This document shows positions 24,373-64,000 of a stretch of 64,000 nucleotides of DNA, in pieces. A program made the position numbers and the translations under genes. Under the pieces are notes generated by a model, which saw only the letters and a program-made list of their open reading frames with translations, made no database searches and had not been told where the DNA came from. The stretch is from Limnanthes douglasii subsp. nivea (lineage: Eukaryota; Streptophyta; Magnoliopsida; Brassicales; Limnanthaceae): assembly GCA_036936605.1 (NCBI GenBank), contig JAUPFV010000001.1:171696386-171760385 (forward strand), written 5' to 3'. The first letter of the stretch is position 1; each line of letters begins with the position of its first letter.

Positions 24373-27115
24373 CTTAATAAAAACATATGCATATACAGAA
24401 TTTAGTATATAATATAAATATAATATTTGATGAATTTAAAATAGATATTTTGATAAAACTACGACATAACACAGTAACGAACCAGTCGAAATCATACCTC
24501 TATTCAAACCTGTACGACACCTCTACAAAAGGTGGATGATAGTGAACTACAAATCTTTACTTTTGGAACCATTAAAGTCATATTCATCCAGGATCAAAAT
24601 AAGTTATAAAACAATTAAAATAGGTAAATATAAATGTCATTTATTTTACTTTCCTTAATAAAAAAATCACATATACATAATTTAGTAACATAATATAAAT
24701 ATAATATTTAACAATGTCAAAATAGATTTTTTTGACGAAACTACGAACGATATAACACGGTAACGAACATGTCGAAATCGTACCACTATTTTAACCTGTG
24801 AGACACCTTTACAAGAGGTGGATGGTAGTGCACTAGGGATCTTTAGTTTTGGAATCATTGAAGTCATATTTATCCATTATCAAAACAAGTTATAAAATAT
24901 TTAAAATAGGTAAATATAGATGTTATAGATTATGTTACTTTCCTTAATAAAAAATTAACATATACATAATTTAGTAACATAATATAATATATAATATATG
25001 ACGATGTCAAAATAGATTCTATGCCGAAACTACGACATAACACAATAACGAACCGATCCAAATCATACCGTTGAACCTAATGGATAGTAATGAACTAATG
25101 ATCTTTAGTTTGAGAACCATTGAAGTCATATTCATCCAATATCAAAACACCTTATAAAATAGGTAAATATAGATGTCATAGATTATGTTACTTTCCTCAA
25201 TAAAAAATGCACATATACATAATTTAGTAATATAGTATAAATATAATAGTTGACGACATCAAAATAGATTTTTTGACGAAACTACAACAGAACACAGTAA
25301 AAAATCGGTCGATATCATACCACTATTCAAACCTGTTAGACACCTCTACAAGAGGTGGATGATAGTGAACGAGGGAGCTTTAGTTTTGGAACCATTGAAG
25401 TTATATTCATCCATGATAAAAAAATGTTATAAAATAATTAAGATATGTAAATATATATGCCATAGATTATGTTACTTCCCTTAATAAAAATCAGATATAC
25501 ATAATTTAGTAAAATAATATAAATATAATATTTGACGATGTCAAAATAGATTTTTTGACGAAACTATGACATAACACATTAACAAACATGTCGAAATCAT
25601 ACCGTTATTCAAACTTTTGAGACACCTCTATAAGAGGTGGATGGTAGTGAACTAGGGATTTTTAGTTTTGAAACCATTGAAGTCATATTTATCCATGATC
25701 AAAACTAATTATAAAATCTTTATAATAGGTAAAAATATATGTTATAGATTATATTACTTTCCTCCATAAAAAATTTACATATACATAATTTAGTAACTTA
25801 ATATAAATATAATATTTGACGACGTCAAAATAGATTTTTAACAAAACTACGATACAACACAATAACGAACCGGTTGAAATCATATCGCTATTCAAACCTG
25901 TGAGACTCCGCTACAAGACATGGATATTAGTGAAGTAGGGATCTTTAGTTTTGGAACCAATGAAGTCATATTCATCTAGGATCAAAACAAGTTGTAAAAT
26001 ACGTAAATATAGATGTCATAGATTATGTTACTTTCCTTGATAAAAAAATCACATATACATAATTTAGTAATATGGTATAAATATAATCTTTGACGACGTC
26101 AATATAGATATTTTGACAAAAAGACGACAGAACACAGTAAAAACCGGTAGAAATCATACTGATATTCAAACTTGTGAGACACCTCTACAAGGGTGGATCA
26201 TAGTGCACTGGGGATCTTTAGTTTTGTAACCATTGAAGTCATATTCATCCATGCTCGAAAAAATTTATAAAATATTTAAAATAGGTAAATATAGATGTTA
26301 TAAATTATGTTACTTTCCTTAATAAAGAATTCATATATACATAATTTAGTAACATGATATAAATATAATATTTGACGACATCAAAATAGATTTTTATGAC
26401 GAAACCACGACATAACACAATAATGAAGAGGTTGAAATCATACCGCTATTCAAAACTGTGAGACACCTCTACAACAGGTGAATGGTAGTGACCTGGGGCT
26501 CTTTAGTTTTGGATCCATTGAAGTCATATTTATCCATGATCAAAACAAGTTGTAAAATATTTAAAATGGGTAAATATATATGTTATAGATTTTGTTACTT
26601 TCCTTAATAAAAAATTCACATGAACATAATTTAGTAACATGATATAAATATAATATTTAAAGATGTCAAAATAGATTTTTTAGACGAAACCACGACATAA
26701 CACGATAATGAAGAGGTTAAGATCATATCGTTATTCAAACCTGTGAGACACCTCGACAAGAGATGGATGGTAGTGAACTGAGGATCTTTAGTTTTGGAAC
26801 CATTGAATTCATATTCATACATGATAAAAACAAGTTGTAAAATACTTAAAATAGGTAAATATATATGTTATAGATTATGTTACTTTCCTTTATAAAAAAT
26901 TCACATATACATAATTTAGTAACATAATATAAATATAATATTTGACGACGTCAAAATTAATTTTTTAATGAAACTACGAAATAACACAATAACGAACATG
27001 TCGAAATCATACCGTTATTCAAACTTGCGAGACACCTCTATCAGAGGTGGATGGTAGTAAACTAGGAATATTTGGTTTTGGAACCATTAAAGTCATATTC
27101 ATCCATGATCAAAAC
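24373..27115 (-). repeat. 283-bp satellite block, about 10 monomers
   Basis: Tandem monomers on the minus strand. The part from about 25041 to 27115 is the inverted counterpart of 61922-64000. The block is interrupted at 27115 by the insertion of element III and resumes at 38257. Confidence 0.9.
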
Positions 27116-27470
27116 TGGTGTGGATTATTTCAGATTGAGGGTAATTTACTAAAGTATTTGGGGAATTTAATGTTTAAGGTGGAGTGTAGCGAGATAATTA
27201 AGGTGTGTGCTTGTATTAAATTCTGATCACCCTCATTAATGAAAGTGGTTCGGATATTTATACTTAATTAACGATCCATAGACATTTCGGGTCGGGTTAT
27301 ATGTTTAGGTTAAGTTTAAGAACCCGTTTCTCTAGGTGTGAAATGACCAGCACCTAGCTTAGTCACATTCCACTACATTTGTCCTGTTCGGTTTATTATG
27401 GTCGTGGTTTGGTCAGAACTGCCCTTCGGATATAGGTAAGTTGTTATGTTAAAAATATCCGACCTTATCA
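27116..27470 (-). repeat. Element III left-arm 3' LTR
   Basis: Minus strand starts TGATAAGGTCGGATATTT and ends ATCCACACCA. The adjacent polypurine tract reads GATCTAAAGGGGCTAC (minus strand, 27471-27486). Confidence 0.9.
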
Positions 27471-27486
27471 GTAGCCCCTTTAGATC

Positions 27487-28262
27487 TTGCAAAAATTATT
27501 TGGAAGAGCCAATCCATAAGAATAGAAATCAACGCATTCTCAATGTGAAATGTATTCTTCCGATCTACCTTTGTATCCGAACTAAATAGATCAATTTTTT
27601 ATATTTAAGAATTTCAAGAGTCAGCTCGATCGGAAGTCGGTGGGACTGATTTTACGGTTAAGAATTTCAAGAGTCTTTTTTCAACGTGGGACACGTGTCA
27701 GGCTCTAGTTCGACCTCTCAGCCGTTTTTCTCCTAGATTCTCGTACTTACTAGGCTAGAAAGTTACTTAGGACTTAACCCCCATGCTTAATAGCCTTTAA
27801 TCATGGCTATGATAAGTTTATCTTCCCCTATGTAACCTTTTTCATTTTCACAGTTATTTAACTCGATTTCACTGTTCTATTTTCTTAAAAAACCCAAACA
27901 CTTCTAGAGAGAGAAAGCTTAGTACTCTTTTAAATTGTGTTCAAGTAATTTATATTCACAGCCAGAAACGCACTAGTAAAAGGGGTTGGCTAAATTCGTC
28001 TGAATTGGAGAGAGCGAGAAAAGTTGTAAGAGACGAAAGAATAGCTGATGATCTTCTTGTCTCTCCTGGTGGAGAACTCAATCAACTAAAAGCAAGCACA
28101 AACTAAGGTTCATCGTCATCAAAGAAATCTAAGGTCAGAAAATTTCCTTTTGTCCCAACTATTTATCCTCTTCAATCAGGATCTTATGTTCAAGAATCTC
28201 AGAACCCTCTCCCTAAAGAAAAGACAATTTCCACTGTTAGGAAACCTTCACCCTTTATTGTC
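27487..28262 (+). other. Leader of the element III antisense ORF, left arm
   Basis: Non-coding stretch between the polypurine tract and the antisense ORF start. The counterpart is 60777-61551 in the right arm. It contains a short repeat, AAGAATTTCAAGAGTC, at about 27606 and 27660. No gene supported. Confidence 0.5.
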
Positions 28263-30622
28263 ATGGGTTCGAACGCTGAGAAGTCTCCTGAGAAGAACAC
28301 CCCTCGCCGAATTACTCGCCAATCCAAGGCTAAGTCCACTCCTAGCTCTTCGAAACATACTAGTTCGGGGACAATAAAGCCCCTGGCATAAACCAAGCCA
28401 TCCGAAAAGCAATCCATCATAATGGAAGAAAATATGGAGGATAGTATACAAGATACTTCTTTTGGGGTGTCCGGACAGACGGAGGACACCGCAGCAGATC
28501 GAAGGGGAAAAATTAAAGTGGGTCTGTCCAATCTAGACGCGCTTCCGGAGTGTCTGGAAGGGAAGCTGGGGCTAAATTTCCAGAAAGTCAATGTGAAGTA
28601 CCTGATATCCCTCCAGAACATTTCTTATGTATACACCCACACCGTCAAATTGGGTCGTATTCGTACAAATGGGGGTTCCCTGATTCTATCAAGGTGAGAA
28701 TCACGATCAGCCCGTAAACTCTGATAGATTGCAAATCTAATGATCTAGTGGTGTAAACCGAGGTGCTGAACTGGGGACTCCAGTTTCCTTTGGATCCGAA
28801 GATAGTCAGGTACTTTCACCTGATTAAGTTATGTCCGAGTGATTTGAGTCCAAATGCGTGGTACACTTTCATGGTTGGCATAATATCTTTAAGGCTTTCC
28901 AAGATCCCACTAACAATGGAGCAATTCGCTGTTGTGGTAAATTTGTGCAAGAACCACCACATTCCCTTCTATCACTAAAATATGAGGAACAATTACAAGG
29001 TAACCTATTAGAGTCTGAAAAACCATGAAGAATATAATTCCTATTCATCAGCGGAGCGTGGAAGAATGGGAAAAAAGATAAAGGTTGACTCGAATCCAAG
29101 CCAACTGACTAGTCACTGGAAGAACATAAGTAAGTTTTATTTATGTTTCTTTAATCTTTTAAATACTATGTGATTATTCCGAACTGACTTGTGCCTTTTG
29201 CAGTTTTTTTAAAACGTTCTTAGAGCATGTAAAGGCAGGTCAAAGCACTTGCGCCAAGCTAAACGCATGGGCCTTGGAGAAATGGGGTAATGGTTTTCAC
29301 AATTGCTTCACCTCATGGAATTTTGTGAGGTCTCATCTGTGGAATAATATAGAAGACCTTACCTGGGAAGAACTGATTACCCCTCCTGCTACAGATGTTA
29401 TCCTGAGGAGAACTAAGGCTAAGGACGCAAAGCTCTACTTGCCTTCTAGAGTCAAAGCCCCTAGTCATCTGGACAAGATGAAGAATAAAAGAAAGAAAGA
29501 AAACCACATCAGACCCACCTAAGCCAACTACCAATGGGACCGGTTCAGAGAATCAATGATAGATCAATGATGTACTGCTGGAAGAAATTGAAGTTACCGT
29601 TAAGGATGGTGGATCGAACAACCAAAGGTTACAAAGAAGGATAAGAAGCGCAAGGCAAGAAGTGATGAAAAAGTTGCAAAGAAGAAGAAAGTCACTATGG
29701 GATCAAATATAATTCTACATCCTTCTGAACTGCCTCCTCCGGTTCCTGTTGGTCCTACTCTTCAAGAAGAAATTCTATCTAACCTTTATTCTAAATAGGC
29801 TACTACCGATGGAGAGGTAAACTTGATGCATTCCATAACATTAATATATAATTTAATGATCTGGACAATGATGAATTCGCGGAGCCTTATCGTCTTGCCA
29901 ATTCGTCCAATGTTGTGACCCATAATGGTGAGACTTATGTGATATCAAGCGAGCAAGACACCCTGATTCATGCCCTCTTAGGTGATATATGTCCGGTAGT
30001 TGACCTAGAAAGACAAATAAGAGAACAAACACATACTATTACTTCCCTGACCACAGCAAACCGAGGCTTGACTAATAACATCTCTACTGCTTGGCAACGC
30101 ATAGAATCTCTAAAGAAGGAAAAAGAGGATTTGGCTGCCAAACTGCTTAAGTCAGAAAAGGCTCAAAGAGATCTCCAGACCAAGTATTCCAGACTGGAAA
30201 TTTCTTCTTCCGATAAGATCAAGGATTTGAAGGAGCAACTAAAAGCTACAGACAATACCATCAAGACTCTATCCGAGGACAAGGTCAACTTGGAGGATTT
30301 TGTTAAGAAGAAAACAGAGGAGAATACATCTCTAGTACAAAAGCAAGCTGAAGAGATGATTGGAGAAAATAGATGATGGCATTAAATACGATATGGTCTT
30401 ACTGTTTCATGAGACTTTTCCTAAGAGGGATCTTGGTCCTCTGTGGAAATTTTTGGAATACGATGACCTTCATTTTCATACAATGGCTGACGGTGACAAG
30501 CACGACTACTCAAGTGGGGAATATTCTGAGGACAATGAAGGAGTTAGTGAGAGTTCAAGTAATGAACTCAAAAATCCTAAAAACGATGGTGGTGAAGAAA
30601 AAATTGAAGGAGACAAGCCCTA
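28263..30622 (+). pseudogene. Element III antisense ORF, left arm, with 74-nt intron
   Basis: Starts at ATG 28263 with a basic, Ser/Thr-rich segment (RRITRQSKAKSTPSSSKH), then DTAADRRGKIKVGLSN, then the conserved core at 28763-28978 (LNWGLQFPLDPKIVRYFHL, CKNHHIPFYH) resembling the plant putative gypsy-type transposon domain. A 74-nt intron fits at 29130-29203 (GTAAGT to TTTTGCAG). Exon 2 gives KLNAWALEKWGNGFHN. A coiled coil lies at 30010-30350 (IESLKKEKEDLAAKLLKSEK) and an acidic Ser/Asp/Glu-rich tail at 30480-30600. Stops such as TAA at about 28389 show decay. Function unknown. Confidence 0.75.
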
Positions 30623-31089
30623 AGGTTGTATTGTAATGTTTTGTGTTTTTTTGTGTTGAAAAAATAACGTCCTTGGATGGACAAGGCATCTTGTTGCATT
30701 GTTTGTTCAATTCATGTTCTTAACACTTAAAGTCTTTGAATGGTCAAGGAATTTGTAAACCATGGATCGGGTATACTCCAATCAGACTTTAAATTTTACT
30801 CCAAGTGTATTAAATAATTCTAATCACATATGTTTGACAAATGTGATCAAGTATTTAACATATCTGATCACCTCAAAGATGTTTGAGAGTCGGGATGTTT
30901 AATAAATATTTAATATATGACAATATCACAGTATGATTAAGTCAAGAAGAACTTTGCACTAGACTTTTGAAGGAAGGCATATGCAATTATTGAAAACTCG
31001 GACACCTAGTTCAAACCTCCTCGCGCCACCAGGGTAAGAAAGAGTATGCCCCCCTAATATTTACATTAACATTCAAAAAGTAAATATTT
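30623..31089 (-). other. Element III 3' untranslated region, left arm
   Basis: AT-rich non-coding region between integrase and antisense ORF, facing both. The right-arm counterpart, 57856-58402, is longer, with an extra segment around 58150-58230, so this zone varies between copies. No gene supported. Confidence 0.6.
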
Positions 31090-31816
31090 ACAAGAGAGAT
31101 CTATACTAAGTATAACCTGAGATGTTCAACGTTCCATGGGTGCTTTAGTGTTCTCCCTTCCCTATCTTGAAGTTCGTATGTTCCTGGTTTAACTTTCACA
31201 CACACCACATAAGGACCTTTCCAATTCGGAGCCAGCTTGCCGAACTATTTTTCTTTGGTGTGTAAAAAGACTTTTCTTAAAACTGTGTCCCCTAATTGAA
31301 AATGTCTTCTTTTAACTTTAGAATAAAATATTCTCCTCATCAAACCCCGGTAATGCGTCGTTCTTAGATGCGCTTAAACTCTTCTTTCTGCAATAAAATC
31401 CAAATGATTCTTAACTGCCATATCGTTTGTATGTTTGTAATAGTTCTAGATTTTGTAAGATGGTAAAGTAGCTTCTATGGGAGTAATTGCAGTCATCCCA
31501 TAGATAAGGGCAAACGGAAATTCTTGTGTAGAAACCCGAGGTGTAGTTCGGTAGCCCACAATACTTCTTGTAGATAACTTGGCCATTTTCCTACAGCTCC
31601 CTCCATATTTTTCTTTAGCCTTAACAAGATTGTTCGATTAACAACTTCATCTTGTCCATTTACTTGAGGGTAGAAATGAGAAGAAAAGAAGTTTTGAATT
31701 CCTCTGGAGGTGCAGAACATTTCCATGTCTTTATTATCAAACTGTGGCCCATTATCTGTGGTAATATTTTGAGGAACCCCAAATATGAAGGCCAACTTAA
31801 GACCAGCTATAGCCAC
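31090..31816 (-). pseudogene. Element III integrase, left arm, N-terminal part deleted
   Basis: The frame 31493-31816 enters integrase in the middle of the core, VPQNITTDNGPQFDNKDMEM, with the second catalytic Asp of TDNG intact, and continues GKWPSYLQEVLW. The zinc finger and first catalytic Asp are deleted together with the end of the second RNase H. The first residues, IAGLKLAFIF, come from a short copied insertion at the deletion scar. Confidence 0.8.
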
Positions 31817-32400
31817 TCAGTAATCGGATTCTTTTTGCGCCGTATATGAGGGCCAACTTAAGACTAGCTATAGTTGCTTCACATTCAGATTCATTATTAG
31901 AATCCCTGAAACCAAAACATATAGCATGATACATAGTATCACCATAGGGATAAGTTAAACAAATTCCAGCCCCACAACCCATAATACTTGATCCACCATC
32001 AGTTCAGACTACCCATTCTTTCTTAGACTGGTTTTCTGACATATGTCCGGGGGATCTATCAGCATGAAATTCTACCTAGAAATCGACCACTGAATGGGCT
32101 TTAATCTTCGTTCAGGGTGCAAAATCAATATCATAATCACCCAGTTCTACTGACCACTTGGTCATCCTGCTTGACACATCAGCTTTCTGAAGAACACTCT
32201 TCAAGGGAAAAGATGTTCGAACGACAATGAAATAAGATTGAAAGTATTGTCTCATCTTTCTTCCTGCAATTACCAAGTCCAATACTAGTTTTTCCAACTT
32301 CAAATATCTTATTTCATCATCCAATAAAGTTTTGCTAATGTAATGCACCGAACGAGGGTATTTGTACACCTTTCTTACTATCACAACACTTATTGCATAC
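31817..32400 (-). pseudogene. Element III RNase H domains, left arm
   Basis: The frame 32112-32384 carries VHYISKTLLDDEIRYLKLEK, the end of the Gypsy RNase H. 31797-31982 carries the second, archaeal-type RNase H (DTMYHAICFGFRDSNNESEC), which is cut by the deletion at about 31816. The two domains in series support Tat-lineage assignment. Confidence 0.75.
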
Positions 32401-32499
32401 TCTTATACAGCTAGATATAAGTAGAGCTTCTCCCTCTAAACATGTTTAAAGAGAGTCTCTGATGAAGACAAATGCTTCTTGATTTCAAGAAATGCCTAA

Positions 32500-33347
32500 T
32501 CACACTGGGGAGACCAATTAAACTATTTGACATTCCTTAATACCTGGAAAAATGAAGAACATTTTTCTGATGATCTTGAAATAACCTATTCAAAGCAGCC
32601 AATCTTCCGTTCAGACTTTGAACTTCTTTGGTGCTCCGAAGAGGATCCATAGCTAGTAGGGCATTAAGTTTATCCATATCAGGTTGAATTCCTTTTTTAC
32701 TTATTATGTAGCCCAAGAATTTTCCAGATCGGACCCCAAAACACTTTTTCAGGGTTTAGCTTCAAGTTCACAATCTTTAAATTAGAAAAGTTTCTTGAAG
32801 ATTAGATATATGTGCATATTCCTCAAAGCTCTTTACCAGCATATCATCTATATAAACTTCCTTGTTTCTGCCAATTTGATTAGTGAAAGCTTTATTTACT
32901 AATATTTTATAAGTGGCTCCAGCATTTTTCAATCCGAACGACATCATCTTTTAACAATGAAGACCTCTGTCCCTAATAAAAGTGGTGTGGTCTTGATCCT
33001 TCAGATCTACTTGTATTTGGTTGTACCTCAAAAATGCATCCATGAAAGACAAACGTTTATTCCCAACTGATCTATCCGAGGAACAAGATAAAGGTCCTTA
33101 GGGCATGCTCTATTAAGTCCAGTAAAGTCAATGCACATGCGCCATTTGACATTCTTTTTCTTGACCAAGAAGGTTTGGCAGTCCACAAAGGGTAATGACA
33201 CTCTTTTATGTGGCCCATCTTGGTCAGACGATCAACTTCTTGAACAATCACATCTGTTTTTTCTTTAGAGAAATACCTTCTTCGTTGTACAACTGGTGCA
33301 ACATTAGTTCGTACAGATAACTTGTGACAAATTATATCAGCTGGCAT
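32500..33347 (-). pseudogene. Element III reverse transcriptase, left arm
   Basis: Minus-strand fragments include RTNVAPVVQRRRYFSKEKTD and VDRLTKMGHIKECHYPLW at 33072-33347, then further palm segments to about 32820 in other frames (a YIDDMLVKS site near 32830-32850). The frame is broken in the middle. The right arm has a better version at 55090-55365. Confidence 0.75.
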
Positions 33348-33439
33348 TCTGGTAACATCGTCATTGCACTAAGAAAATACATGTTGATTATTCATTAAAA
33401 ATGACAACAGCCTGTGTTTTTTAAACTCAGTGCTAAAAC

Positions 33440-33846
33440 ATGCATTCTGGAGATCCAAGACCTCCCAAATATTGCATTCTAAGATGTTGGGCAATATACC
33501 ACAACAAACAGTACTCTTATCATTTTCTTAAAAGGTCATTTTCCCAGCAACACCTCTTTTTCAAATTCCCCAATCACATCTGAAGAACTCCTTGTGAAGC
33601 GCACGATGTTCTGTTTGATCGTTGTATAACCGAAGGGTTTCTCATCTGCTTATAGGAGCTTAAAAATATGATTTTTGCTGAACTGCATGAGTCAATCAGA
33701 ATCCAACGTATATCATTTCCCCCTATCGATGCCTCTATTACCACAACGTCTTCACGAGGCCCTGCAATGTCTCTTAGATCATCCTCATCAAAAACTGTAA
33801 AAGGAGATGGAGTTTGATATAAGTGCGTGGACATTCTTCCTTCCAA
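33440..33846 (-). pseudogene. Element III protease, left arm, catalytic motif lost
   Basis: Sequence DDLRDIAGPREDVVVIEASI leads into the protease core, but the catalytic triad reads DSCSS where active copies (element IV, element II first copy) have DTGSS. The right arm reads DTCSS. So the Gly-to-Cys change predates the arm duplication and Thr-to-Ser followed in this arm. Confidence 0.75.
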
Positions 33847-35229
33847 CTAGGTGGTCAAACTGTGGACATGCCTCTTTCTTGATGAAGTAGAAGGTGCAGT
33901 CACAGTGTCCCCCTTAAAGATGGTTAGAGATTCAAAAAAAATTAATCAAACCAGAGAGAATTTTAGTCTCGTCTGTTATTACACTTACCCGGTTCCAACT
34001 TGGATCCTGATCAAGGTACTCAAATTCTATATCAAACCTTTCAGTTATCACGATATCATCTTCTTGTGTAGACGTTCTAGGATTGTTTGAAAGAGTAATT
34101 CGAGGATTATTGGTATTGGCTTGTGCGCTATTCGGCCTATTCCCCCCTCATTTTTTGACATAGGCCCCCAACTTACACTTTTAGTGAGGTTATGGACCTC
34201 CTACTTCAATGCTATACAATCATGTGTATCATGTCCTATGTCATTATGGTATTTACAAAAACGAGTACTCTGATTCTCTCTGGGGACCGCAACGCTGCTG
34301 GCTTTCTAAAGTGCACTTCGTTCTTAGTTTTGTCATAGATTGTAGCCACACTTTCCTCAAATTCAGCAAACCACTCAGGTTGAACCCATGGTCCCCTCTT
34401 GTTTCTGATCTGTTGGTTCTGATTTTAGTTAGACTGATTCTGTCTTGATCGATTAGATCCATGTCTGGTCTCCTTTGACCTGTACTCGGACTGATTAGTA
34501 GCATGAGGTATTGATGTTATAGTAGTGGACATTATCTGACGAGGTACGCTGGTCTTTTTAGTTTCCTTCATATTGATTTGTTTCCCCACCTGATTCAACA
34601 ACCCTCCAAAAGTCATGGCTTACTTCCGGGTGACTGAACCAAGTTGCTCGAATTTAACCCTTGTCTAAGGGGAGCAATTGCAACTTGTTCGAAGCAATCT
34701 TCTAGCCCATTCTTTGTATTTAAAAATTGGTTGCTGTACTCATTCAGAGACTCATTTGGCTCCTTAGCACAATGGATAATGATATCCTCATTTAAGCTCT
34801 TTGATTCCAACATACTGCATCCGAAAGACAACCCAAAATATATCAAAAAATTTAATGGATCCCTGAGGGAGACTATTATACCATTTGAGGGCACTTCCTG
34901 TGAAAGTTTGAGAGAAGGCCCTGCATAACAGTCTATCATCATCATCATCGAAGTTCATCATAAAGTTCTTAAATTGTTCCAGAAGGTTGTCCGGGTCTTT
35001 TCTCCCATCATATTTCTCCATTTTAGAGCTGTCAAACCTCTTGGGAAGGTGTCGAGAGAGTGTTTTCGCAGATGAAGGCGATTGCCTCCAGTTTATGTTG
35101 CGGCTAAAACACTAGTTTCGTTTGGTGTAGCAAAAATACATGGTTTGGATTAAAAAGCAAAAGGATCAATCAACAAACAGTCAATATGTTGATCAACTGA
35201 ACCTTTTTCCTTCCCATGGTGCTTCTTGA
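33847..35229 (-). pseudogene. Element III gag, main part, left arm
   Basis: Capsid region at 34613-35021 (KMEKYDGRKDPDNLLEQFKN, then FSQTFTGSALKWYNSLPQGS), followed by 34425-34616 and a nucleocapsid zone near 34180-34260, where the element IV counterpart has the CxxH...C knuckle. The first 230 bases (34990-35229) repeat coding sequence also present at 37165-37430 on the other side of the satellite insertion. Confidence 0.75.
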
Positions 35230-37156: not shown

Positions 37157-37847
37157 TTATCGGAGATAACATTGTTCTAGATGATTGTCCCGATCTTTGC
37201 TCCCATCATATTTCTCCATCTTAGAGCTGTCAACCCTCTTCGGAAGGTGTCCGAAGAGTATTTTCGTAGATAAAGGCGATTGCCTCCAGTTTATGTTGCG
37301 GCTAAAAACAATATCTTCGTTTGGTGTAGCAAAAATACCTGGTTCGGATTGAAAAGCGAAAGGATCAATCAACAAACAGCCAATATGCTCATCAGCTGAA
37401 CCTTTTTCCTTCCCATGGTGCTTTTTGAGCCTGTCATGCATATCTCTTTTTCTTGAATGTTTTTTAGTTAACCTCATTTTATTTTTTGACTGTCCTTCAT
37501 CACTGCATGAAGACACTGATTCTTCAGGTCCTGCCTCATTAGATGAGCTGCTAGAGGATTCTGATGTAGAATTCTCCACATGTTTAGATTGGTGTGATTT
37601 TTTAGAGCTGAGATGAGTCTTTAGAGATTGCTCATTTTCTCCAGGATTGTCCTGTATGGTGAAGTACCGACGCACATGATTTTTCATTAACCCCTTTTTC
37701 TGCTTGTTTCATCGCACTCAAAGCCTCTATCTGAGCCCTCAATTGATCCCGCTCCTCGATAGTATACTCATTGTTTTCTTTTACGACTTCCACGTCATGA
37801 GGTGCAACATTCTGAGCATTCGTATCCATCCGAACTACCTTATACAC
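37157..37847 (-). pseudogene. Element III gag N-terminal part, left arm
   Basis: Start codons at 37847 or 37829 (MDTNAQNVAPHDVEVVKENN), then RDQLRAQIEALSAMKQAEK, then, with a frame change, 37157-37687 with the acidic Ser-rich segment and the IDPFAFQSEPGIFATPNED block. It ends at LEQ, where the satellite leader begins. It is interrupted by the satellite, so no complete Gag can be made. Confidence 0.75.
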
Positions 37848-50307: not shown

Positions 50308-50985
50308 ATGGATACGAATGCTCAGAATGTTGCACCTCATGAGGTGGAAGTCGTAAAAGAAAACAATGAGTATAGTATCGAGGAGCGGGATCAATTGAGG
50401 GCTCAGATAGAGGCTTTGAGTGCGCTGAAACAAGCAGAAAAAATGGGTTAATGAAAAATCCTGTGCGTCGGTACTTCACCATACAGGACAATCCTGGAGA
50501 AAATGAGCAATCTCTAAAGACTAACTCAGCTCTAAAAAACGCACCAATCTAAACATGTGGAGAATTCTACATCGGAATCCTCTATCAGCTCATCCAATGA
50601 GGCAGGACCTGGAGAATCAGTGTCCTCATGCAGTGATGAAGGGCGGTCAAAAAATAAAATGAGGTTAACTAAAAAGCATTCAAGACAAAGAGATATGCAT
50701 GGGAGGCTCAAAAAGCACCATGGGAAGGAATAGGGTTCAGTTCATCAGCATATTGGTTGTTTGTTGATTGATCATTTAGCTTTTCAATCTGAACCAGGTA
50801 TTTTTGCTACACCAAACGAAGATATTGTTTTTAACCGCAACATAAACTGGAGGCAATCGCCTTTATCTGCGAAAATACTCTCCGGACACCTTCCGAAGAG
50901 GTTTGACAGCTCTAAGATGGAGAAATATGATGGGAGCAAAGATCCGAACAATCATCTGGAACAATGTAATCTCCGACAAGCAAAG
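50308..50985 (+). pseudogene. Element III gag N-terminal part, right arm
   Basis: ATG at 50308 (MDTNAQ start as in the left arm), then frame changes and stops. The acidic Ser-rich and IDPFAFQSEP-like blocks are recognisable; 50761-51039 encodes the last part, ending at LEQ, where the satellite leader begins. Confidence 0.75.
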
Positions 50986-52914: not shown

Positions 52915-54290
52915 GAAGCACCATGGGAAGGAAAAAGGTCTAGTTGATCAACATATTGATTGTTTGTTGATTGATCCTTTCGCTTTTAATTCCAAACCAT
53001 GTATTTTTGTTACACCGAACAAAAATAGTGTTTTAGCCGCAGCATAAACTGGAGGCAATCGCCTTTATCTGCAAAAATACTCTCCCGACACCTTCCCAAG
53101 AGGTTTGACAGCTCTAAGATGGAGAAATATAATGGGAGAAAAGATCCGGGCAATCATCTGGAACAGTTTAAGAACTTTATGATGAACTTCGATGATGATG
53201 ATGATAGACTATTATGCAGGGCCTTCTCTCAAACTTTCACAGGAAGTGCCCTCAAATGGTATAATAGTCTCCCTCAGGGATCCATTAATTTTTTTTTTAT
53301 ATATTTTGGGTTGTCTTTCGGAGGCAGTTTGTTGGAATCAAAGAGCTTAAATGAGGATACCATTATCTATTGTGCTAAGGAGCCAAATGAGTCTCTGAAT
53401 GAGTACAACAGCCAATTTTTAAATACAAAGAATGGGCTAGCATATTGCTTCGAACAAGTTGCAATTGCTCCCCTTAGACAAGGGTTAAATTCGAGCAACT
53501 TGGTTCAGTCACCCGGAAGTAAGCCATGACTTTTGGAGGGTTGTTGAATCAGGTGGGGAAACAAATCAATATGAAGGAAACTAAAAAGACCATGGTACCT
53601 CGTCAGATAAGGTCCACTATTACAACATCAATACCTCAGGCTACTAATCAGTCCGAGTACAGGTTAAAGGAGACCAGACATGGATCTAATCGATCAAGAC
53701 AGAATCAGTCTAACTAAAATCAGAACCAACAGATGAGAAACAAGAGGGGACCATGGGTTCAACCTGAGTGGTTTGGTGAATTTGGGGAAAGTGTGGCTAC
53801 AATCTATGACAAAACTAAGAACGAAGTGCACTTTAGAAAGCCAGCAGCGTTGCAGTCCCCAGAGAGAACCGGAGTACCCGTTTTTGTAAATACCATAATG
53901 ACATAGGACATGATACCCATGATTGTATAGCATTGAAGCAGGAGGTCCATAACCTCACTAAAAAGTGTAAGTTGGGGGCATATGTCAAAAAATGAGAGGG
54001 GAACAGGTCGGATAGCGCACAAGCCAATACCAATAATCCTTGAACTACTCTTTCAAACAATCCTGGAACGTCTACACAAGAAGATGATATCGTGATAACT
54101 GAAAGGTTTGATATATAATTTGAGTACCTTGATCCGGATCCAAGTTGGAACCGGGTAAGGGTCATAACACACAAGACTAAAATTGTCTCTGGTTTGATTA
54201 ATGTTTTTGAATCTCTAACCATCTTTAAGAGGGACACTGTGACTGCACCTTCTACTTCATCAAGGAAGAGGCATGTCCACAGTTTGACCA
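52915..54290 (+). pseudogene. Element III gag continued, right arm
   Basis: 53119-53529 is the capsid region (GNHLEQFKNFMMNFDDDDDR, FSQTFTGSALKWYNSLPQGS, EPNESLNEYNSQFLNTKNGL). A poly-T run near 53290 gives a phenylalanine-rich error. 53526-53717 continues in another frame (MTFGGLLNQVGKQINMKETK). The nucleocapsid zone (about 53890-53945) and linker follow with stops. Confidence 0.75.
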
Positions 54291-54295
54291 CCTAG

Positions 54296-54660
54296 TTGGA
54301 TGGAAGAATGTCCACACACCTATATCAAACTTCATCTTCTTTTATAGTTTTTGATGAGGATGACCTAAGAGACATTGCAGGGCCTCATGAAGACGTTGTG
54401 GTAATAGGGGCATCGATAGGGGGAAATGATATACGTTGGATTCTGATTGACACATGCAGTTCAGCAAATATTATATTTTTAAGCTCCTATAAGCAGATGA
54501 GAAACCCTTCGGTTATACAACGATCGAACAGAACATCGTGCGCTTCACAAGGAGTTCTTCAGATGTGATTGGGGAATTTGAAGAAGAGGTGTTGCTGGGA
54601 AAAGGACCTTTTAAGAAAATGATAAGAGTACTGTTTGTTGTGGTAGATTGCCCAACATCT
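54296..54660 (+). pseudogene. Element III protease, right arm
   Basis: DDLRDIAGPHEDVVVIGASI leads to ILIDTCSSANIIFLSSYKQM. The catalytic Gly of DTG is replaced by Cys. The next part, GEFEEEVLLGKGPFKK-like, lies in another frame. Confidence 0.75.
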
Positions 54661-54779
54661 TAGAATGCAATATTTGGAAGGTCTTGGATCTCCAGAATGC
54701 ATGTTTTCGCACCGAGTTTCAAAAACACACGTTGTTGTCATTTTTTATTAATAATCAACACATATTTTCTTAGTGCAAT

Positions 54780-55560
54780 GACGATGTTACCAGAATGCCA
54801 TTTGATATAATTTGTCACAAGTTATCTGTACGAACTAATGTTGCACCAGTTGTACAACGAAGAAGGTATTTCTCTAAAGAAAAAGCAGATGTGATTGTTT
54901 AAGAAGTTGATCGTCTGACCAAGATGGGCCACATAAAAGAGTGTCATTACCCTTTGTGGACTGCCAACCCGTCTTGGTCAAGAAAAAGAATGTCAAATGG
55001 CGCATGTGCATTAACTTTACTGGACTTAATAGAGCATGCCCTAAGGACCTATATCTTATTCCTCAGATAGATCAGTTGGGAATAAACGTGTGTCTTTCAT
55101 GGATGCATTTTTGAGGTACAACCAAATACAAGTAGATCTAAAGGATCAAGACCACACCACTTTTATTACGGACAAAGGTCTTCATTGTTATAAGGTGATG
55201 TCGTTCGGATTGAAAAATGCTGGAGCCACTTATCAAATATTAGTAAATAAAGCTTTCACTAATCAAATTGGCAGAAACAAGGAAGTTTATATAGATGATA
55301 TGCTGGTAAAGAGCTTGGAGGAAGATGCACATATATCTAACCTTCGAGAAACTTTTCTAATTTAAAGATTGTGAACTTGAAGCTAAACCCTGAAAACGTG
55401 TTTTGGGGTCCGATCTGGAAAATTCTTGGGCTACATAATAAGTGAAAAAGGAATTCAACCTGATATGGATCAACTTAATGCCCTACTAGCTATGGATCCT
55501 CTTCGGAGCACCAAAGAAGTTTAAAGGCTGAACGGAAGATTGGCTGCTTTGAACAGGTTT
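54780..55560 (+). pseudogene. Element III reverse transcriptase, right arm
   Basis: Fragments in three frames. 55090-55365 holds FMDAFLRYNQIQVDLKDQDH, YKVMSFGLKNAGATYQ and the catalytic YIDDMLVKS. The usual SGYNQ reads LRYNQ. The N-terminal part around 54840-55060 is frameshifted. Confidence 0.8.
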
Positions 55561-56420
55561 ATTTCAAGATCATCAGAAAAATGTTCTTCATTTTTCCAGG
55601 TATTAAGGAATGTCAAATACTTTAATTGGTCTCCCCAGTGTGATTAGGCATTTCTTGAAATCAAGAAGCATTTGTCTTTACCCAAGACTCTCTTTAAATC
55701 TGTTTAGCGGGAGAAGCTCTACGTATATCTAGCTGTACAAGAGTATGCAATAAGTGGTGTGATAGTAAGAGAGGTGGAAAACTACCCTCGTTCGGTGCAT
55801 TACATTAACAAACGTTTATTGGATGCTGAAATAAGATATTTGAAGTTGGAAAAACAAGTATTGGCCTTGGTAATTGCAGGAAGAAAGATGAGACCATACT
55901 TTCAAGCTCATTCCATTGTCGTTCGAAAATCTTTTCCCTTAGAGAGTGTTCTTCAGAAAGATGTTGTGTCAAGCAGGATGACCCAAGTGGTCAGTAGAAC
56001 TGGGTGATTATGATATTGATTTTACGCCCCGAACGGCGATTAAAGCCCAGTCAGTGGTCGATTTCTAGGTAGTATTTCATGCTGATAGATCCTCCGGACA
56101 TATGCAGAAAACCAGTCTAAGAAAAAATGGGTAGTCTGAACTGATGGTGGATCAAGTATTATGGGTTGTGGGGATGGAATTTGTTTAACTTATCCATATG
56201 GTGATATTATGTATCATGCTGTATGTTTTCGTTTCAGGGATTTCAATAATGAATCTGAATGTGAAGCAGCTATAGCTGGTCTTAAGTTGGCCCTCATATA
56301 CGGCGCAAGAAGAATCCGATTACTGAGTGATTCCCACTTACTGATTCACCATGCTCAAGGGAAATATAAAGACAAGAAAGAAAAATTGATTAAATACTTT
56401 CTTATGTTGAGGTAAGTTGC
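55561..56420 (+). pseudogene. Element III RNase H and archaeal-type RNase H, right arm
   Basis: 55759-56007 carries SVHYINKRLLDAEIRYLKLE of the first RNase H. 56161-56415 is the second one, with DIMYHAVCFRFRDFNNESEC, AAIAGLKLALIYGARRIRLL and SDSHLLIHHAQGKY. Having both is the diagnostic Tat feature. The left arm loses homology at the TTACTGAGTG near 56328. Confidence 0.8.
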
Positions 56421-56839
56421 TACAAGCTTTAAAAGTATCCACTATGAGCACATCCTTAGATTGGAGAATATTGTGGCAGACTCTTCGGCAACTATAGCTT
56501 ATTCTGAATCTTACCCTTGGATTTTGATGTTAGAATGTCGATCAAGACAGACGAGCCAAGAAAAAGGTAAAACGAATGAAGAAAGTATGAGTATAATAAC
56601 CATTCAACCCAAAGACTAGAGGTATGTTATTCTTCAGTTTATTTCCGATGAGATTTTGCCTCCGGATAAAGTCATGGCTAAGAAAAACAAGTATAAATCA
56701 TGTGGTTTCTTGGTATTAAGGGAATTTATTTACAAGAAATCTTTCAACAGACCTCTTTTGCGTTGCTTAGGATTTGAAGAATCCCAATCGGCGTTATCTA
56801 AACTGTATGATGGAGAAGGTTCTGCACACTTTTGTGGCA

Positions 56840-57855
56840 AAAAATCCCTAACCATGAGAGTTTTATTAACATGGTACTACTGACCAACCATAATGGAAGA
56901 TGCTAAAGATATGGTAAAGAAGTGTGATCATTGCCAGAGAGATGGAAATAAAATTCATGTGCCAGCAGTTCCTATGTAATCCATATCTGAACCGATACCC
57001 TTCGATAGATGGGGGTTGGATCTTGTTGGGCCTCTTCCCATGGCGTCCAGTGGATGTGGAACAATCATAGTTGTTATTGAATATTTCTCTAAGTGGATAG
57101 AGGCAGCTTCTTTAGCTGGAACCACTTCCAAGTCAATTATTAAATTTATTTTATCTAACATATGTTGTAGATTTGGGGTTCCCCGAAATATTACCACAGA
57201 TAATGGGCCACAGTTTGATAATAAAGACATGGAAATGTTATGCACCTCCAGAGGAATTTAAAACTTAGTTTCTTCTCCTTTCTACCCTCAAGCAAATGGA
57301 CAAGATGAAGTTGTTAATCGGACAATCTTGTTAGGGCTAAAGAAGAATATGGAGGGAGCTGTAGGAAAATGGTCAAGTTATCTACAAGAAGTATTGTGGG
57401 CTTACCGAACTACACCTCGGGTTTCTACACAAGAATTTCCGCTTTCCCTTGTCTATAGGATGGATGCAATTACTCCCATATAAGCTACTTTACCATCTTA
57501 CAGAATCTAGAACTATTCCAAACAGACAAATGATATGGCAGTTGAGAATCAGTTGGATTTTATTGTAGAAAGAAGAGTTTAAGCGCATCTAAGAACGACA
57601 CATTACCAGGGTTTGATGAGGAGAATATTTTCTTCTAAAGTTAAAAGAAGACATTTTCAATTAGGGGACAAAGTTTTAAGAAAAATCTTTTTACACACCA
57701 AGGAAAAATAGTTCGGCAAGCTAGCTCCGAATTGGGAAGGTCCTTATGTGGTGTGTGGGAATGTCAAACCAGGAATATACGAACTTCAATATAGGGAAGG
57801 GAGAACACTAAAGCACCCATGGAATGTTGAACATCTCATGTTATACTTAGTATAA
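56840..57855 (+). pseudogene. Element III integrase, right arm
   Basis: Zinc-finger segment VKKCDHCQRDGNKIHVPAVP, core with MDLVGPLPMASSGCGTIIVV, TTDNGPQFDNKDMEM and GQDEVVNRTI (carrying the three acidic catalytic positions), then a C-terminal part with KLAPNWEGPYVV and HPWNVEHLMLYL. Stops at about 57259, 57481 and others make it inactive. It is the fullest integrase in the window. Confidence 0.85.
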
Positions 57856-58402
57856 ATATCTCTTATAAATATTTAATTTTTGAATGTTAATGTAAATATT
57901 AGGGGGGCATACTCTTTCTACCCTGGTGGCACGGGGAGGTTTGAACTAGGTGTTCGAGTTTTCAATAATTACTTATGCCTTCTTCAAAAGTCTGGTGCAA
58001 AGTTCTTCTTGACTTAATCATAGTGTGATGTTGTCGTATATTAAATATTTAATAAACATCCCGGCTCTCAAACATCTTTGAGGTGATCAGATATGTTAAA
58101 TACTTGATCACATTTGTCAAACATATGTGATTAGAATTATTTAATACACTTACTTAACAGCTCTGAAATATCAAAGATCAGTTAAACACTTGCAGTAAAA
58201 TTTAAACAAAATTTACGCAAAGGGAAGTACGATATTAAAGTCTGATTTGAGTATACCCGATCCATGGTTCATAAATGCCTTGATCATTCAAAGACTTTAA
58301 CTGTTAAGAACATGAATTAAACAAACAATGCAACAAGATGCCTTGTCCATCCAATGACGTTATTTTTTCAATAACAAAAACACATAGCATTACAATACAA
58401 CC
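57856..58402 (+). other. Element III 3' untranslated region, right arm
   Basis: AT-rich, non-coding. It contains about 80 bp (around 58150-58230) not found in the left arm. No gene supported. Confidence 0.6.
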
Positions 58403-60776
58403 TTAGAGCTTGTTTCTTTCGATTTTTTCTTCACTATCATCGTTTTTAAAACTTTTGAGTTCCACACTTGAACTCTCACTAACTCCTTCATTGTCCTCGG
58501 AATCTTCCCCACTTGAGTAGTTGTGCTTGTCACCGTCAGCCATTGTATAAAAAGGAATGTCATCGTATTTCACAAATTTCCACAAAGGACCAAAATTCCT
58601 CTTAGGAAAAGTATCATGAAATAATAAGACCATATCGGATTTAATGCCATCATCTCTTTTCTCCAATCATCTCTTCGGCTTGCTTTTGTACTAGAGATGT
58701 ATTCTCCTCTGTTTTCTTCTTAACAAGATCCTCTAAGTTGACCTTGTCCTCGGATAAAATCTTGATGGTATTGTCTGTAGCTTTTAGTTGCGCCTTCAAA
58801 TCCTTGATCTTATCGGAAGAAGAAGTTTTCAGTCTGGAATACTTGGTCTGGAGATCTCTTTGAGCCTTTTCTGACTTAAGCAGTTTGGCAGCCAAATCCT
58901 CTTTTTCCTTCTTCAGAGATTCTATGCTTTGCTGAGCAGTAGAGATGTTATTAGTCAAGCCATGGTTTGCTATGGTCAGGGAAGTAATAGTATGTGTTTG
59001 TTCCTTCATTTGTCTTTTTAGGTCAACTACCAGACAGATATAACCTAAGAGGGCATGACTCAGGGTGTCTTGCTCGCTTGATATCATATAAGTCTCACCG
59101 TCATGGGTCACAGCATTGGATGAGTTGGCAGGACGATAAGGCTCCGCGAATTCATCATTGTCCAGATCATTAAATTATATATTAATGTTATGGAATGCAT
59201 CAAGATCTACCTCTCCATCGGTAGTAGCCTATTTAGAATAAAGGTTAGGTGGAATTTCTACTTGAAGAGTAGGACCAACAGGAACCGGAGGAGGCATTTC
59301 AGAAGGATGTAGAATTATATTTGATCTCATGATGACTTTCTTCTTCTTTGCAACTTTTTCATCACTTCTTGCCTTGCGCTACTTATCCTTCTTTGTAACC
59401 TTTGGTGGGTTGTTCGATCAACCATCCTTAACAGTAACTTCAATTGCTTCCAGCAGTACATCATTGATCTCTTATTGATTCTCTGAACCGGTCCCTTTGG
59501 TAGTTGTCTTAGGTGGGTCTGATGTGGTTTTTTTCTTTCTTTTGTTCTTCATCTTGTCCAGATGACTAGGGGATTTGAATCTAGAAGGCAAGTAGAGCTT
59601 TGCGTCCTTAGCCTTAGTTCTCCTTAGGATAACATCTGTAGGAGGAGGGGTAATCAGTTATTCCCAGGTAAGGTCTTCTATATTATTCCACAGATGAGAC
59701 CTCACAAAATTCCATGAGGTGAAGCAGTTGTGAAAACAATTCCCCCATTTCTTCAAGGCCCATGCGTTTAGCTTGGCGCAAGTGCTTTGACCTGCCTTTA
59801 CAAGCTCTTAGAACTCTTTAATAAAAACTGCAAAAGGCACAAGTCAGTTCGGAATAATCACATAGTATTTAAAAGATTAAAGAAACATAAATAAAACTTA
59901 CTTATGCTCTTCCAGTGACTAGTCAGTTGGCTTGGATTCGAGTCAACCTTTATTTTTTTTCCCATTCTTCCACGCTCCGCTGATGAATAGGAATTATATT
60001 CTTCATGGTTTTTCGGACTCCAATAGGTCATTCACTACCTTGTAATCATTCCTCATATTGTAGTGATAGAAGAGAATGTGGTGGTTCTTGCACAAATTTA
60101 CCACAACATTGAATTGCTCCATTGGTAGTGGGATCTTGGAAAGCCTTAAAGCTATTATGCCAACGATGAAAATATACCACGCATTTGGACTCAAATCACT
60201 CGGACATAACTTAATCAGGTGAAAGTACCTGACTATCTTCGGATCCAAAGGAAACTGGAGTCCCCAGTTCTGTACCTCGGTGTACACCACTAGATCATTA
60301 GATTTGCAATCTATCAGAGTTTCCGGGGTGATCGGGATTCTCACCTTGAAAGAATTGGGGAACCCCCACTTTGTACGAATACGACCTAATTTGGCGGTGT
60401 GGGTGTATACGTAAGAAATGTTCTGGAGGGATATCGGCTACTTCACACTGACTTTCGGGAAATTTGGCCCCACCTTCCCTTCCAGACACTCCGGAAGCGC
60501 GTCCGGATTGAACAGACCCACTTTAATTTTTCCCCTTCGATCTGCTGCAGTGTCTTCCGTCTGTCCGGACACCTCAAAATAAGTATCTTCTATACTATCC
60601 TCTATATTTTCTTCCATTATGATGGACCGCTTTTGGGATGGCTTGGTTTCTGCCAGGGGTTTTATTGTCCCCGAACTAGTATGTTTCGAAGAGTTATGAG
60701 TGGACTTAGCCTTGGATTGGCGAGTAATTCGGCGAGGGATGTTCTTCTTAGGATACTTCTCAGCGTTCGAACCCAT
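58403..60776 (-). pseudogene. Element III antisense ORF, right arm, with 74-nt intron
   Basis: Minus strand from ATG 60776. Landmarks: IPRRITRQSKAKSTHNSSKH, DTAADRRGKIKVGLFNPDAL, the conserved core at 60003-60344 (NWGLQFPLDPKIVRYFHLIK, SPNAWYIFIVGIIALRLSK, CKNHHILFYHYNM), an intron 59828-59901, KLNAWALKKWGN, a coiled coil at 58650-59000, and an acidic tail (58403-58560). It is better preserved than the other two copies, with few stops. The core resembles the plant putative gypsy-type transposon domain. Role unknown. Confidence 0.78.
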
Positions 60777-61551
60777 GAAAATAAAGGGTGAAGGTTTCCT
60801 AACACTGGAAATTGTCTTTTCTTTAGGGGAGAGGGTTCTGAGATTCTTGAACATAAGATCCTGATTGAAGAGGAGAAATAGTTGGGACAAAAGGCAATTT
60901 TCTGACCTTAGATGTCTTTGATGACGATGAACCTTAGTTTGTGCTTGCTTTTAGTTGATTAAGTTCTCCACCAGGAGAGACAGGAAGACCAACAATTATT
61001 CTTTCATCTCTTGCAACTTTTCTCGCTCTCTCCAATTCAAACAAATTTATCCAACCCCTTTTACTAGTGCGTTTCTGGCTGTGAATATAAATTACTTGAA
61101 CACAATTTGAAAGAGTACTAAGCTTTCTCTCTCTAGAAGTGTTTGTGTTTTTAAGACAATGGAACAGTGAAATCGAGTTAAATAACTGTGAAAATAAAAA
61201 AGGTTACATAGGGGAATATAAACTTATCATAGCCATGATTAAAGACTATTAAGCATAGGGGTTAATTCCTAAGTAACTTTCTAGCCTAGAAAGTACGATA
61301 ATCTAGGAGAAAACGGCTAAGAGGTCGAACTAGAGCCTGACACGTGTCCCACGTTGAAAAAAGACTCTTGAAATTCTGAACCGTAAAATCAGTCTTACCG
61401 ACTTCCGATCGAGCTGACTCTTGAAATTCTTAAATATAAAAAGTTGATCTATTTAGTTCGGATACAAAGGTAGATCGGAAGAATACATTTCACATTGAGA
61501 ATGTGTTGATTTCTATTCTTATGGATTAGCTCTTCCAAAGAATTTTTGCAA
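60777..61551 (-). other. Leader of the element III antisense ORF, right arm
   Basis: Non-coding counterpart of 27487-28262. No gene supported. Confidence 0.5.
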
Positions 61552-61921
61552 GATCTAAAGGGGCTACTGATAAGGTCAGATATTTTAACACAACAACTTA
61601 CCTATATCCGAAGGGAAGTTCTGACCAAACCACTACCATAATAAACCGAACAGGACAAATGTAGTGGAATGTGACTAAGTTAGGTGCTGGTCATTTCACA
61701 CCTAGAGAAACGGGTTCTTAAACTTAACCTAAACATATAACCCGACCCGAAAGGTCTATGGGTCGTTAATTAAGTATAAATACCCGAACCACTTTTATTA
61801 ATGAGGGTGATCAGAATTTAATACAAGTACACACCTTAATTATCTCGTTACATTCCACCTTAAACATTAAATTCTCAAAACACTTTATTAAATTACCCTC
61901 AATCTGAAATAATCCACACCA
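61552..61921 (+). repeat. Element III right-arm polypurine tract and 3' LTR
   Basis: GATCTAAAGGGGCTAC (61552-61567) directly precedes the LTR start TGATAAGGTCAG (61568). The LTR ends ATCCACACCA at 61921. Confidence 0.9.
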
Positions 61922-64000
61922 GTTTTGATCGTGGATGAATATGACTTCAACGGTTCCAAAACCAAAGATTCCTAGTTCACTACCATCCACCTCTTATAGA
62001 GGTGTCTCGCAAGTTTGAATAGCGGTATGATTTCGACATGTTCGTTACTGTGTTATTTCGTAGTTTCATCAAAAAATTAATTTTGACGTTGTCAAATATT
62101 ATATTTATATTATGTTACTAAATTATGTATATGTGAATTTTTTATAAAGGAAAGTAACATAACCTATAACATATATATTAACCTATTTTAAATATTTTAC
62201 AACTTGTTTTGATCATGTATGAATATGAATTCAATGGTTCCAAAACTAAAGATCCTCAGTTCACTACCATCCATCTCTTGTAGAGGTGTCTCACAGGTTT
62301 GAATAACGATATGATTTTAACCTCTTCATTATTGTGTTATGTCGTGTTTCGTTAAAAAAATCTATTTTGACATCTTTAAATATTATATTTATATCATGTT
62401 ACTAAATTATGTATATGTGAATTTTTTATTAAGGAAAGTAACATAATCTATAACATATATATTTATCCATTTTAAATATTTTACAACTTGTTATGATCAT
62501 GGATAAATATGACTTCAATGGTTCCAAAACTAAAGATCCCCAGGTCACTACCATGCACCTCTTGTAGAGGTGTCTCAAAGGTTTTAATAGCGGTATGATT
62601 TCAACCTCTTCATTATTGTGTTATGTCGTGGTTTCGTCATAAAAATCTATTTTGACGTCGTCAAATATTATACTTATATCATGTTACTAAATTATGTATA
62701 TGTAAATTCTTTATTAAGGAAAGTAACAAAATTTATAACATTTATATTTACTTATTTTAAATATTTTATAACTTTTTTTTATCATGGATGAATATGACTT
62801 CAATGGTTACAAACTAAAGATCCCCAGTGCACTATCATCCACCTCTTGTACAGGTGTCTCACATGTTTGAATATCAGTATGATTTCTACCGGTTTTTACT
62901 GTGTTCTGTCGTAGTTTTGTCAAAAAATCTATATTGACGTCGTCAAAGATTATATTTATACTATATTACTAAATTATGTATACGCAATATTTTTATCAAG
63001 GAAAGTAACATAATCTATGACATCTATATTTACTTATTTTATAACTTGTTTTTATCCTAGATGAATATGACTTCATTGGTTCCAAAACTAAAGATCCCTA
63101 GTTCACTACTATCCACGTCTTGTAGTGGAGTCTCACAGGTTTGAATAGCGATATGATTTCAACTGGTTCGTTATTGTGTTATGTCGTAGTTTCGTTAAAA
63201 AATCTATTTTGACATCATCAAATATTATATTTATATTATGTTACTAAATTATGTATATGTAAAATTTTTATGGAGGAAAGGAATATAATCTATAACATAT
63301 ATTTTTACCTATTATAAATATTTTATAACTTGTTTTGATCATGGATAAATATGACTTCAATGGTTTCAAAACTAAAGATCCCTAGTTCACTACCATTCAC
63401 CTCTTATAGAGGTTTCTCACAAGTTTGAATAGCGGTATGATTTCGACATGTTTGTTAATGTGTTATGTCATAGTTTCGTCAAAAAATCTATTTTGGCATC
63501 GTCAAATATTATATTTATATTATGTTACTAAATTATGTATATCTGATTATTTATTAAGGGAAGTAACATAATCTATGACATATATATTTACCCATTTTAA
63601 TTATTTTATAACTTTTTCTTTTATCATGGATGAATATAACTTCAATGGTTCCAAAACTAAAGCTCCCTCGTTCACTATCATCCACCTCTTATAGAGGTGT
63701 GTAACAGGTTTGAATAGTGGTATCATATCGACCGATATTTTACTGTGTTCCGTCATAGTTTCGTCAAAAAATCTATTTTGATGTCGTCAAATATTATATT
63801 TATACTATATTACTAAATTATGTATATGTGCATTTTTTATTGAGGAAAGTAACATAATCTATGACATCTATATTTACCTATTTTATAAGTTGTTTTGATA
63901 TTGGATGAATATGACTTCAATGGTTCTCAAACTAAAGGTCACTAGTTCATTACTATCCATTAGGTTCAACGGTATGATTTGGATCGGTTCGTTATTGTGT
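61922..64000 (+). repeat. 283-bp satellite block, right arm, cut by window edge
   Basis: About seven monomers, the inverted counterpart of 25041-27115. The last bases, GGTTCAACGGTATGATTTGG, match the minus strand at about 25060-25079, so the inverted repeat continues past the window. Confidence 0.9.

Follow-up and report, generated by a model that had tools for sequence, protein, structure and literature searches.

Large inverted duplications have been published for several plant nuclear genomes. The account of the Salix purpurea W describes palindromes with arms of about 20 kb, a spacer of a few kb, an average arm identity above 99% and a partial 'pre-arm' outside the palindrome (PMC7023750), whereas the inverted repeats described for the Populus trichocarpa Y comprise five arms of 90-95% identity with truncated copies of one gene (PMC7465354). 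On a smaller scale, work on VIM4-VIM2 of Arabidopsis Cvi reports that inverted genes can silence their own family via small RNAs when they are transcribed through (PMC13213937). Here we describe a locus in Limnanthes douglasii subsp. nivea, contained in a stretch of 64,000 nucleotides (contig JAUPFV010000001.1, positions 171,696,386 to 171,760,385; hereafter the window), in which two long inverted arms share an insertion of one long terminal repeat (LTR) retrotransposon, element III, and flank a centre with a gene for a mitochondrial ADP/ATP carrier. A preliminary description of this DNA had called large palindromes unusual in plant nuclear DNA, a view with which the willow and poplar reports do not sit well (PMC7023750, PMC7465354). 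The locus is probably an old, decaying inverted segmental duplication that lies in a cluster of duplications and has escaped strong arm-to-arm homogenisation.

The giant imperfect palindrome of the preliminary description was borne out when the window was compared with its own reverse complement, the dot-plot type of check. One collinear inverted chain of three matches joins 25040-39366 to 64000-48745, with segments 31814-39366 / 56329-48745 (7,634 columns), 30803-31784 / 58151-57171 (983 columns) and 25040-30792 / 64000-58235 (5,773 columns). The two longest inverted matches scored 11,789 and 8,894 bits, compared with 41 bits for the best match in 20 first-order Markov shuffles of the window. 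A subsequent global arm-to-arm alignment gave 14,270 aligned positions at 95.2% identity, with 682 differences (392 transitions and 290 transversions) and 51 gaps, of which 31 span a single base; the distance between the arms by Kimura's formula (K), worked by hand from these counts, is about 0.049. Segmental duplications are defined by a length of at least 1 kb and an identity of 90%, and the two inverted copies exceed both values. The match stops at 25040 only since the right arm meets the edge of the window at 64000, and the left arm may start further to the left. On the inner side, the edges first placed at 39745 and 45042 have to be moved, as collinear homology ends at 39366 and 48745, and the simple arm-spacer-arm layout with a spacer of 5.3 kb gives way to about 5.7 kb measured from the last common block, or 9.4 kb between the collinear arm ends.

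Element III, with LTRs of 354-355 bp, TG...CA ends and a 5-bp target duplication, interrupts a satellite unit in both arms, with AAAAC (GTTTT on the other strand) on each side; these target duplications and the carrier promoter common to both arms are as previously claimed. Between the arms, K is 0.050 (standard error, SE, 0.012) for the 5' LTRs and 0.047 (SE 0.012) for the 3' LTRs, whereas the two LTRs within an arm are 0.113 (left, SE 0.019) and 0.121 (right, SE 0.020) apart. Since the LTRs differ more within than between arms and the same AAAAC is found in both, the block was copied after element III had inserted, and the simplest reading of the sequence is a single insertion that was later copied with the block. 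All seven left-arm monomers of the 285-bp satellite that were compared are closest to the right-arm monomer of the same rank (94-97% identity, against 81-90% for other pairs). Older internal repeats and an insertion are thus common to both arms and in register, the pattern that block copying leaves.

Signs of gag and pol domains of the gypsy type in element III are mixed. Among Pfam domains, RT_RNaseH at 32115-32402 reached 38.7 bits (cut-off 24.8), while rve (24.6 bits, cut-off 32.6) and two gag matches (17.8 bits, and 20.6 bits at 53029-53526 in the right copy; cut-off 24.1) stayed below their thresholds, and the frames are broken. A search with the gag frame yielded none of 100 candidates at an E value of 1e-5 or better. 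Within the element, a direct repeat of about 257 bp (34973-35229 and 37171-37428; 89% identical in the left arm, 88% in the right) flanks a satellite-bearing block of 1.9 kb, as if the satellite had entered element III with an internal duplication. Weak Transposase_28 matches, both under the cut-off, were seen at 28757-28975 (E 0.023) and 10733-11140 (E 0.0024); the former lies on the strand opposite to the element III pol and perhaps belongs to a frame that runs antisense in the interval from pol to the 3' LTR.

The nature of the arm differences bears on whether the palindrome could have arisen during assembly. Counted over both arms, C-to-T type differences affect 78 of 1,174 CG sites (6.6%), 67 of 1,271 CHG sites (5.3%) and 247 of 7,488 CHH sites (3.3%), a bias towards CG and CHG that is expected of methylated plant DNA. 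The 31 single-base gaps fall outside any run in 13 cases, in runs of two in five, in runs of three in three and in runs of at least four in ten, and leave the left arm short 14 times and the right arm 17 times. This pattern of substitutions and gaps fits evolved sequence better than raw-read error, although it is no proof that the central join is correct. Deletions, too, are specific to one arm. About 0.84 kb of pol is missing from the left arm, and the 30 bp found at this junction match a left-arm site 61 bp away at 27 positions and its right-arm counterpart (56269-56298) at 29; near the centre, 22 bp at 39746-39767 agree with 39795-39816 at 18 positions. As a control, 300 pieces drawn from random positions were shuffled, and each was compared with the 200 bp around its place of origin; the best values were 23 of 30 and 17 of 22, a narrow margin for the 22-bp case.

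Assemblies often fail in regions rich in satellite and retroelement sequence, and the present region is of this kind, so that a head-to-head joining of two diverged copies from different places, or of two haplotypes, has to be considered. Such an error is nevertheless unlikely. The window is free of N, most of the spacer consists of sequence other than that of the arms, and the window also contains a third copy and a tandem duplication that are of similar age; moreover, an arm difference of 4.8%, high for alleles, together with methylation-type substitutions and arm-specific deletions is too much for read-through. The earlier statements that the arms have diverged with independent deletions and are no simple read-through artefact stand, the differences being mainly substitutions with a bias towards CG and CHG sites, and we take the assembly to mirror the chromosome.

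The palindrome is broader in scope than first described, with a third copy and a tandem duplication sharing the same history. The third copy, in the left part of the window, differs from the arms by a K of 0.060-0.074 over its longer segments. When 4531-6970 was compared three ways with this copy as outgroup, changes unique to one sequence numbered 92 in the third copy, 48 in the right arm and 37 in the left, and four positions differed in all three; as changes specific to the third copy outnumber the arm-specific ones, the arms are closest to each other across this segment. The two tandem duplicates, the second of which overlaps the outer left arm, are 0.031 apart and lie 0.044 and 0.049 from the right arm (1,679-1,697 shared positions). 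That they are nearer to each other than to the right arm suggests that the tandem step followed the inverted duplication, in which case the right arm would lack it beyond 64000. At a rate of 6.5e-9, the arm split (K=0.049) would date to about 3.8 million years ago. At the rate of 2.5e-9 used in the willow and poplar papers it would be about 10 million years old (PMC7023750, PMC7465354).

The centre is more intricate than the arms. Outwards, the right unit runs from block A (45042-45430) through an unshared 183 bp to block B (45613-45729), the 3' flank and body of the carrier gene and the collinear arm from 48745, whereas the left unit runs from block D (41282-39885) through block B (39884-39768), the 22 bp of filler-like sequence and block A (39745-39363) to the arm from 39366. 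About 3.0 kb of the right unit (45730-48744), comprising the 3' flank and the carrier gene except its start, have no counterpart in the left arm. Blocks B and D of the left unit recur in the third copy (K=0.067 for 772-2284 against 39768-41282). Between the units lies a fragment of a different relative of element III, whose LTR is far from all four element III LTRs (K=0.38-0.40) and which matches Retrotrans_gag (34.9 bits) and RVT_1 (30.0 bits). The K of 0.027 for block A, lower than the average over the arms, raised the question of late filler. As the adjoining 1.1 kb of arm has just as low a value (31 differences over 1,080 positions, added up by hand), no later date is claimed for the block.

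Several observations weigh against a duplication that simply decayed. Although blocks A and B are homologous between the arms, their order differs, and deletion alone does not explain this. The left arm (41282) and the third copy (772) share the exact base at which block D ends although their flanks differ, which is not what random breaks would produce. The shared end point, and the retroelement fragments and satellites that fill much of the arms, would suit two copies of one very large mobile element inserted by chance in opposite orientations. This is very unlikely, as a promoter and gene start of the host belong to the arms, and element III sits inside the satellite at one and the same base in both, flanked by a target duplication of its own. 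Block B, with only 117 bp, ranks the copies otherwise (third copy to left 0.053, third copy to right 0.111, left to right 0.111; SE 0.02-0.03); its shortness may be the reason, and is the only explanation we can offer.

Divergence is moreover uneven along the arms, a further difficulty for decay alone. K is 0.043 in the inner half and 0.055 in the outer half, the spread among bins of 500 columns exceeds that in all 1000 uniform simulations, and an identical stretch of the greatest length observed (274 bp, 35690-35965 within the inner satellite) arose in only five of 1000 simulations, so that limited past gene conversion is possible. By feature, K rises from 0.018 in the gene start through 0.028-0.036 in the inner satellite pieces and the promoter and 0.047-0.053 in the LTRs, 37159-37901, gag-pol and the outer satellite to 0.059-0.060 in the outer element body, which may reflect unequal mutation, constraint or some old conversion. 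The greater likeness of the inner halves and the one unexpectedly long identical run, like the size, the orientation and the gene near the centre, would suit a palindrome of the sex-chromosome kind, maintained by conversion to protect or regulate its genes. For the present locus this is highly improbable: arm identity is 95.2% rather than about 99% or more, the average being above 99% in the willow arms described (PMC7023750), the between-arm K is alike for LTRs at opposite ends of element III, and the gene is intact in one arm only. Across the arms, no maintained gene-conversion tract stood out by bin counts, identical runs or feature-wise K.

The only intact carrier gene among the three copies in the window is that of the right arm. 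Its identity is supported by a three-stretch Mito_carr match of 225 bits over the enclosing 396-aa frame and by solved ADP/ATP carrier structures that match the frame down to an E value of 1.6e-150. The 7,999 candidates scored were those sharing most words with the query. Among the best 120, matches that cover at least 94% of the query have an identity of 76-84% and represent many flowering plants, Linum, Hibiscus and Hevea among them; three shorter matches in the same set are 73%, 88% and 92% identical. In the left arm the promoter and gene start are retained without the gene body, the break running through a TTTT common with block A, and in the third copy nothing but the 3' end remains, itself with a deletion of 5 bp. 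The gene might be a processed retrocopy: plant carrier genes have introns and the present frame has none, but by eye neither a poly-A tract nor a target duplication was seen. In a comparison by eye with two relatives, the protein is short of a small N-terminal stretch and departs from both at some positions where the two agree; it may be evolving faster. A 53-bp unit stands twice in tandem, 100% identical, at 47444-47550 on the 3' side of the gene and is probably a young duplication.

The coordinates and strands of the two carrier promoters show that both face the centre. Read-through from the left promoter would run antisense into the intact gene, and the palindrome might silence or tune that gene via promoter- or gene-directed small RNAs, perhaps within an interval that does not recombine, for example a sex-linked one or a supergene; we regard this idea as very unlikely. 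Palindromes were also said beforehand to be able to drive deletion and amplification, and nothing seen in the window shows such activity at present.

For the inverted duplication that we favour, the divergence values would give the following history. Element III would have inserted into the satellite first (K 0.11-0.12), after which the locus would have been duplicated once, yielding the present third copy (K about 0.067). A block with the carrier gene, its promoter, the satellite and element III would then have been copied in inverted orientation beside itself, giving the two arms (K about 0.049), and part of the left arm would later have been duplicated in tandem (K about 0.036), while the arms drifted apart, each with its own deletions. 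The inverted copying presumably proceeded by break repair with template switching, either as inverted break-induced replication or as foldback; foldback at breaks near inverted repeats is described for yeast without Sae2 or Mre11 (PMC10622511). The junction at which the left arm would have lost the body of the carrier gene shows microhomology and filler-like DNA, much as end-joining repair leaves them, and we infer end joining as the maker of the deletions; a report on Arabidopsis names templated insertions with microhomology as a hallmark of end joining by polymerase theta (PMC10923293).

Table 1 Features of the palindrome and its surroundings, in window coordinates.
Feature	Coordinates	Strand	Remarks
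Third copy of the locus, right-arm orientation	772-6970	+	Without the equivalent of 47920-50494 (carrier 5' part, promoter, 5' LTR)
Tandem duplicate 1, retroelement piece and satellite	16750-21481	+	K=0.035-0.036 to duplicate 2
Tandem duplicate 2, overlapping outer left arm	21481-26738	+	K=0.035-0.036 to duplicate 1
Left arm, visible part	25040-39366	-	Reverse complement of 48745-64000
285-bp satellite array, outer left arm	25081-27115	+	In register with right arm; monomer comparison
Element III, left copy, LTR retrotransposon	27116-38256	-	LTRs 355 bp: 37902-38256 (5'), 27116-27470 (3'); AAAAC at 27111-27115 and 38257-38261
Left-arm deletion of about 0.84 kb (right arm 56330-57171) with 30 bp templated filler	31784-31813		Filler resembles 31845-31874
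Carrier gene start, left arm	39307-39366	+	20 codons (18 in right copy), broken off at 39366; arm alignment, translation
Block A, left copy	39363-39745		Homologous to 45042-45430, K=0.027 over 381 positions; joined to truncated carrier gene via shared TTTT
Inter-block 22 bp	39746-39767		Between A and B, resembles 39795-39816
Block B, left copy	39768-39884	-	Innermost sequence common to both arms and third copy
Block D of left unit	39885-41282	-	Common to third copy; not found in right unit
Spacer, fragment of a different element III relative (LTR, gag, reverse transcriptase)	41284-45029	-	Right edge set by eye
Block A, right copy	45042-45430		Order differs from left arm
Block B, right copy	45613-45729	+	Homologous to left copy
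Intact ADP/ATP carrier gene, right arm only	47677-48798	-	373 aa, uninterrupted frame; Mito_carr, structure matches, translation
Right arm, running off window edge	48745-64000	+	Global alignment with left arm
Element III, right copy, same insertion	49881-61921	+	LTRs 49881-50235 (5'), 61568-61921 (3'); GTTTT target duplication
285-bp satellite array, right arm	61922-63959	-	Monomer comparison

Elsewhere in the window, three segments (7014-7366, 7400-7565 and 7596-7990) are each 72-78% identical to their reverse complement, in the manner of foldback or miniature inverted-repeat elements, and a 61-bp unit is repeated four times at 13140-13382. Scans of the window with Rfam at gathering thresholds and for tRNAs found nothing. 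A Pfam run covered 130 of 143 listed frames between stops (positions 1-48900, satellites excluded) and matched 40 families at E 0.05, of which the first 25 were examined; weak matches such as those to SRCR, bPH_8 and NttE, and to Nbs1_C and Chordopox_A30L in further scans, were taken as chance.

The order of events at a plant palindrome can thus be read from a single sequence: a retroelement insertion, a first duplication, an inverted duplication, a tandem duplication and the loss of a gene in one arm. Provided that the assembly is correct, the locus is also an instance of a large inverted repeat that persists in a plant while its arms drift about 5% apart without strong homogenisation, which offers a useful contrast to the willow palindromes and leaves current ideas unchanged. 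In common with those palindromes, as described, the locus has inverted arms with LTR retrotransposons inside, a spacer of a few kb, an arm-specific deletion and an extra partial copy outside the palindrome. In willow, however, identity exceeds 99% on average with evidence of gene conversion, several gene families occur in two or more arms, and the LTR elements mostly inserted once the palindromes had formed, whereas here identity is 95.2% with at most weak signs of conversion, one gene is intact, and element III preceded the duplication (PMC7023750). The poplar repeats, like the present ones, have several arms of similar identity with truncated gene copies and are thought to derive from duplications and rearrangements, but they carry pieces of a response-regulator gene that are proposed to make small RNAs (PMC7465354). 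With VIM4-VIM2 and PAI4-PAI1 of Arabidopsis Cvi the locus shares an inverted gene duplication in a plant nuclear genome, and a central deletion is reported to have shaped the present form of VIM4-VIM2; there, close inverted genes are transcribed through and give small RNAs, while here the arms exceed 14 kb and lie kilobases apart (PMC13213937). Judged by these comparisons, the Limnanthes locus is nearer to poplar in divergence and nearer to willow in size.

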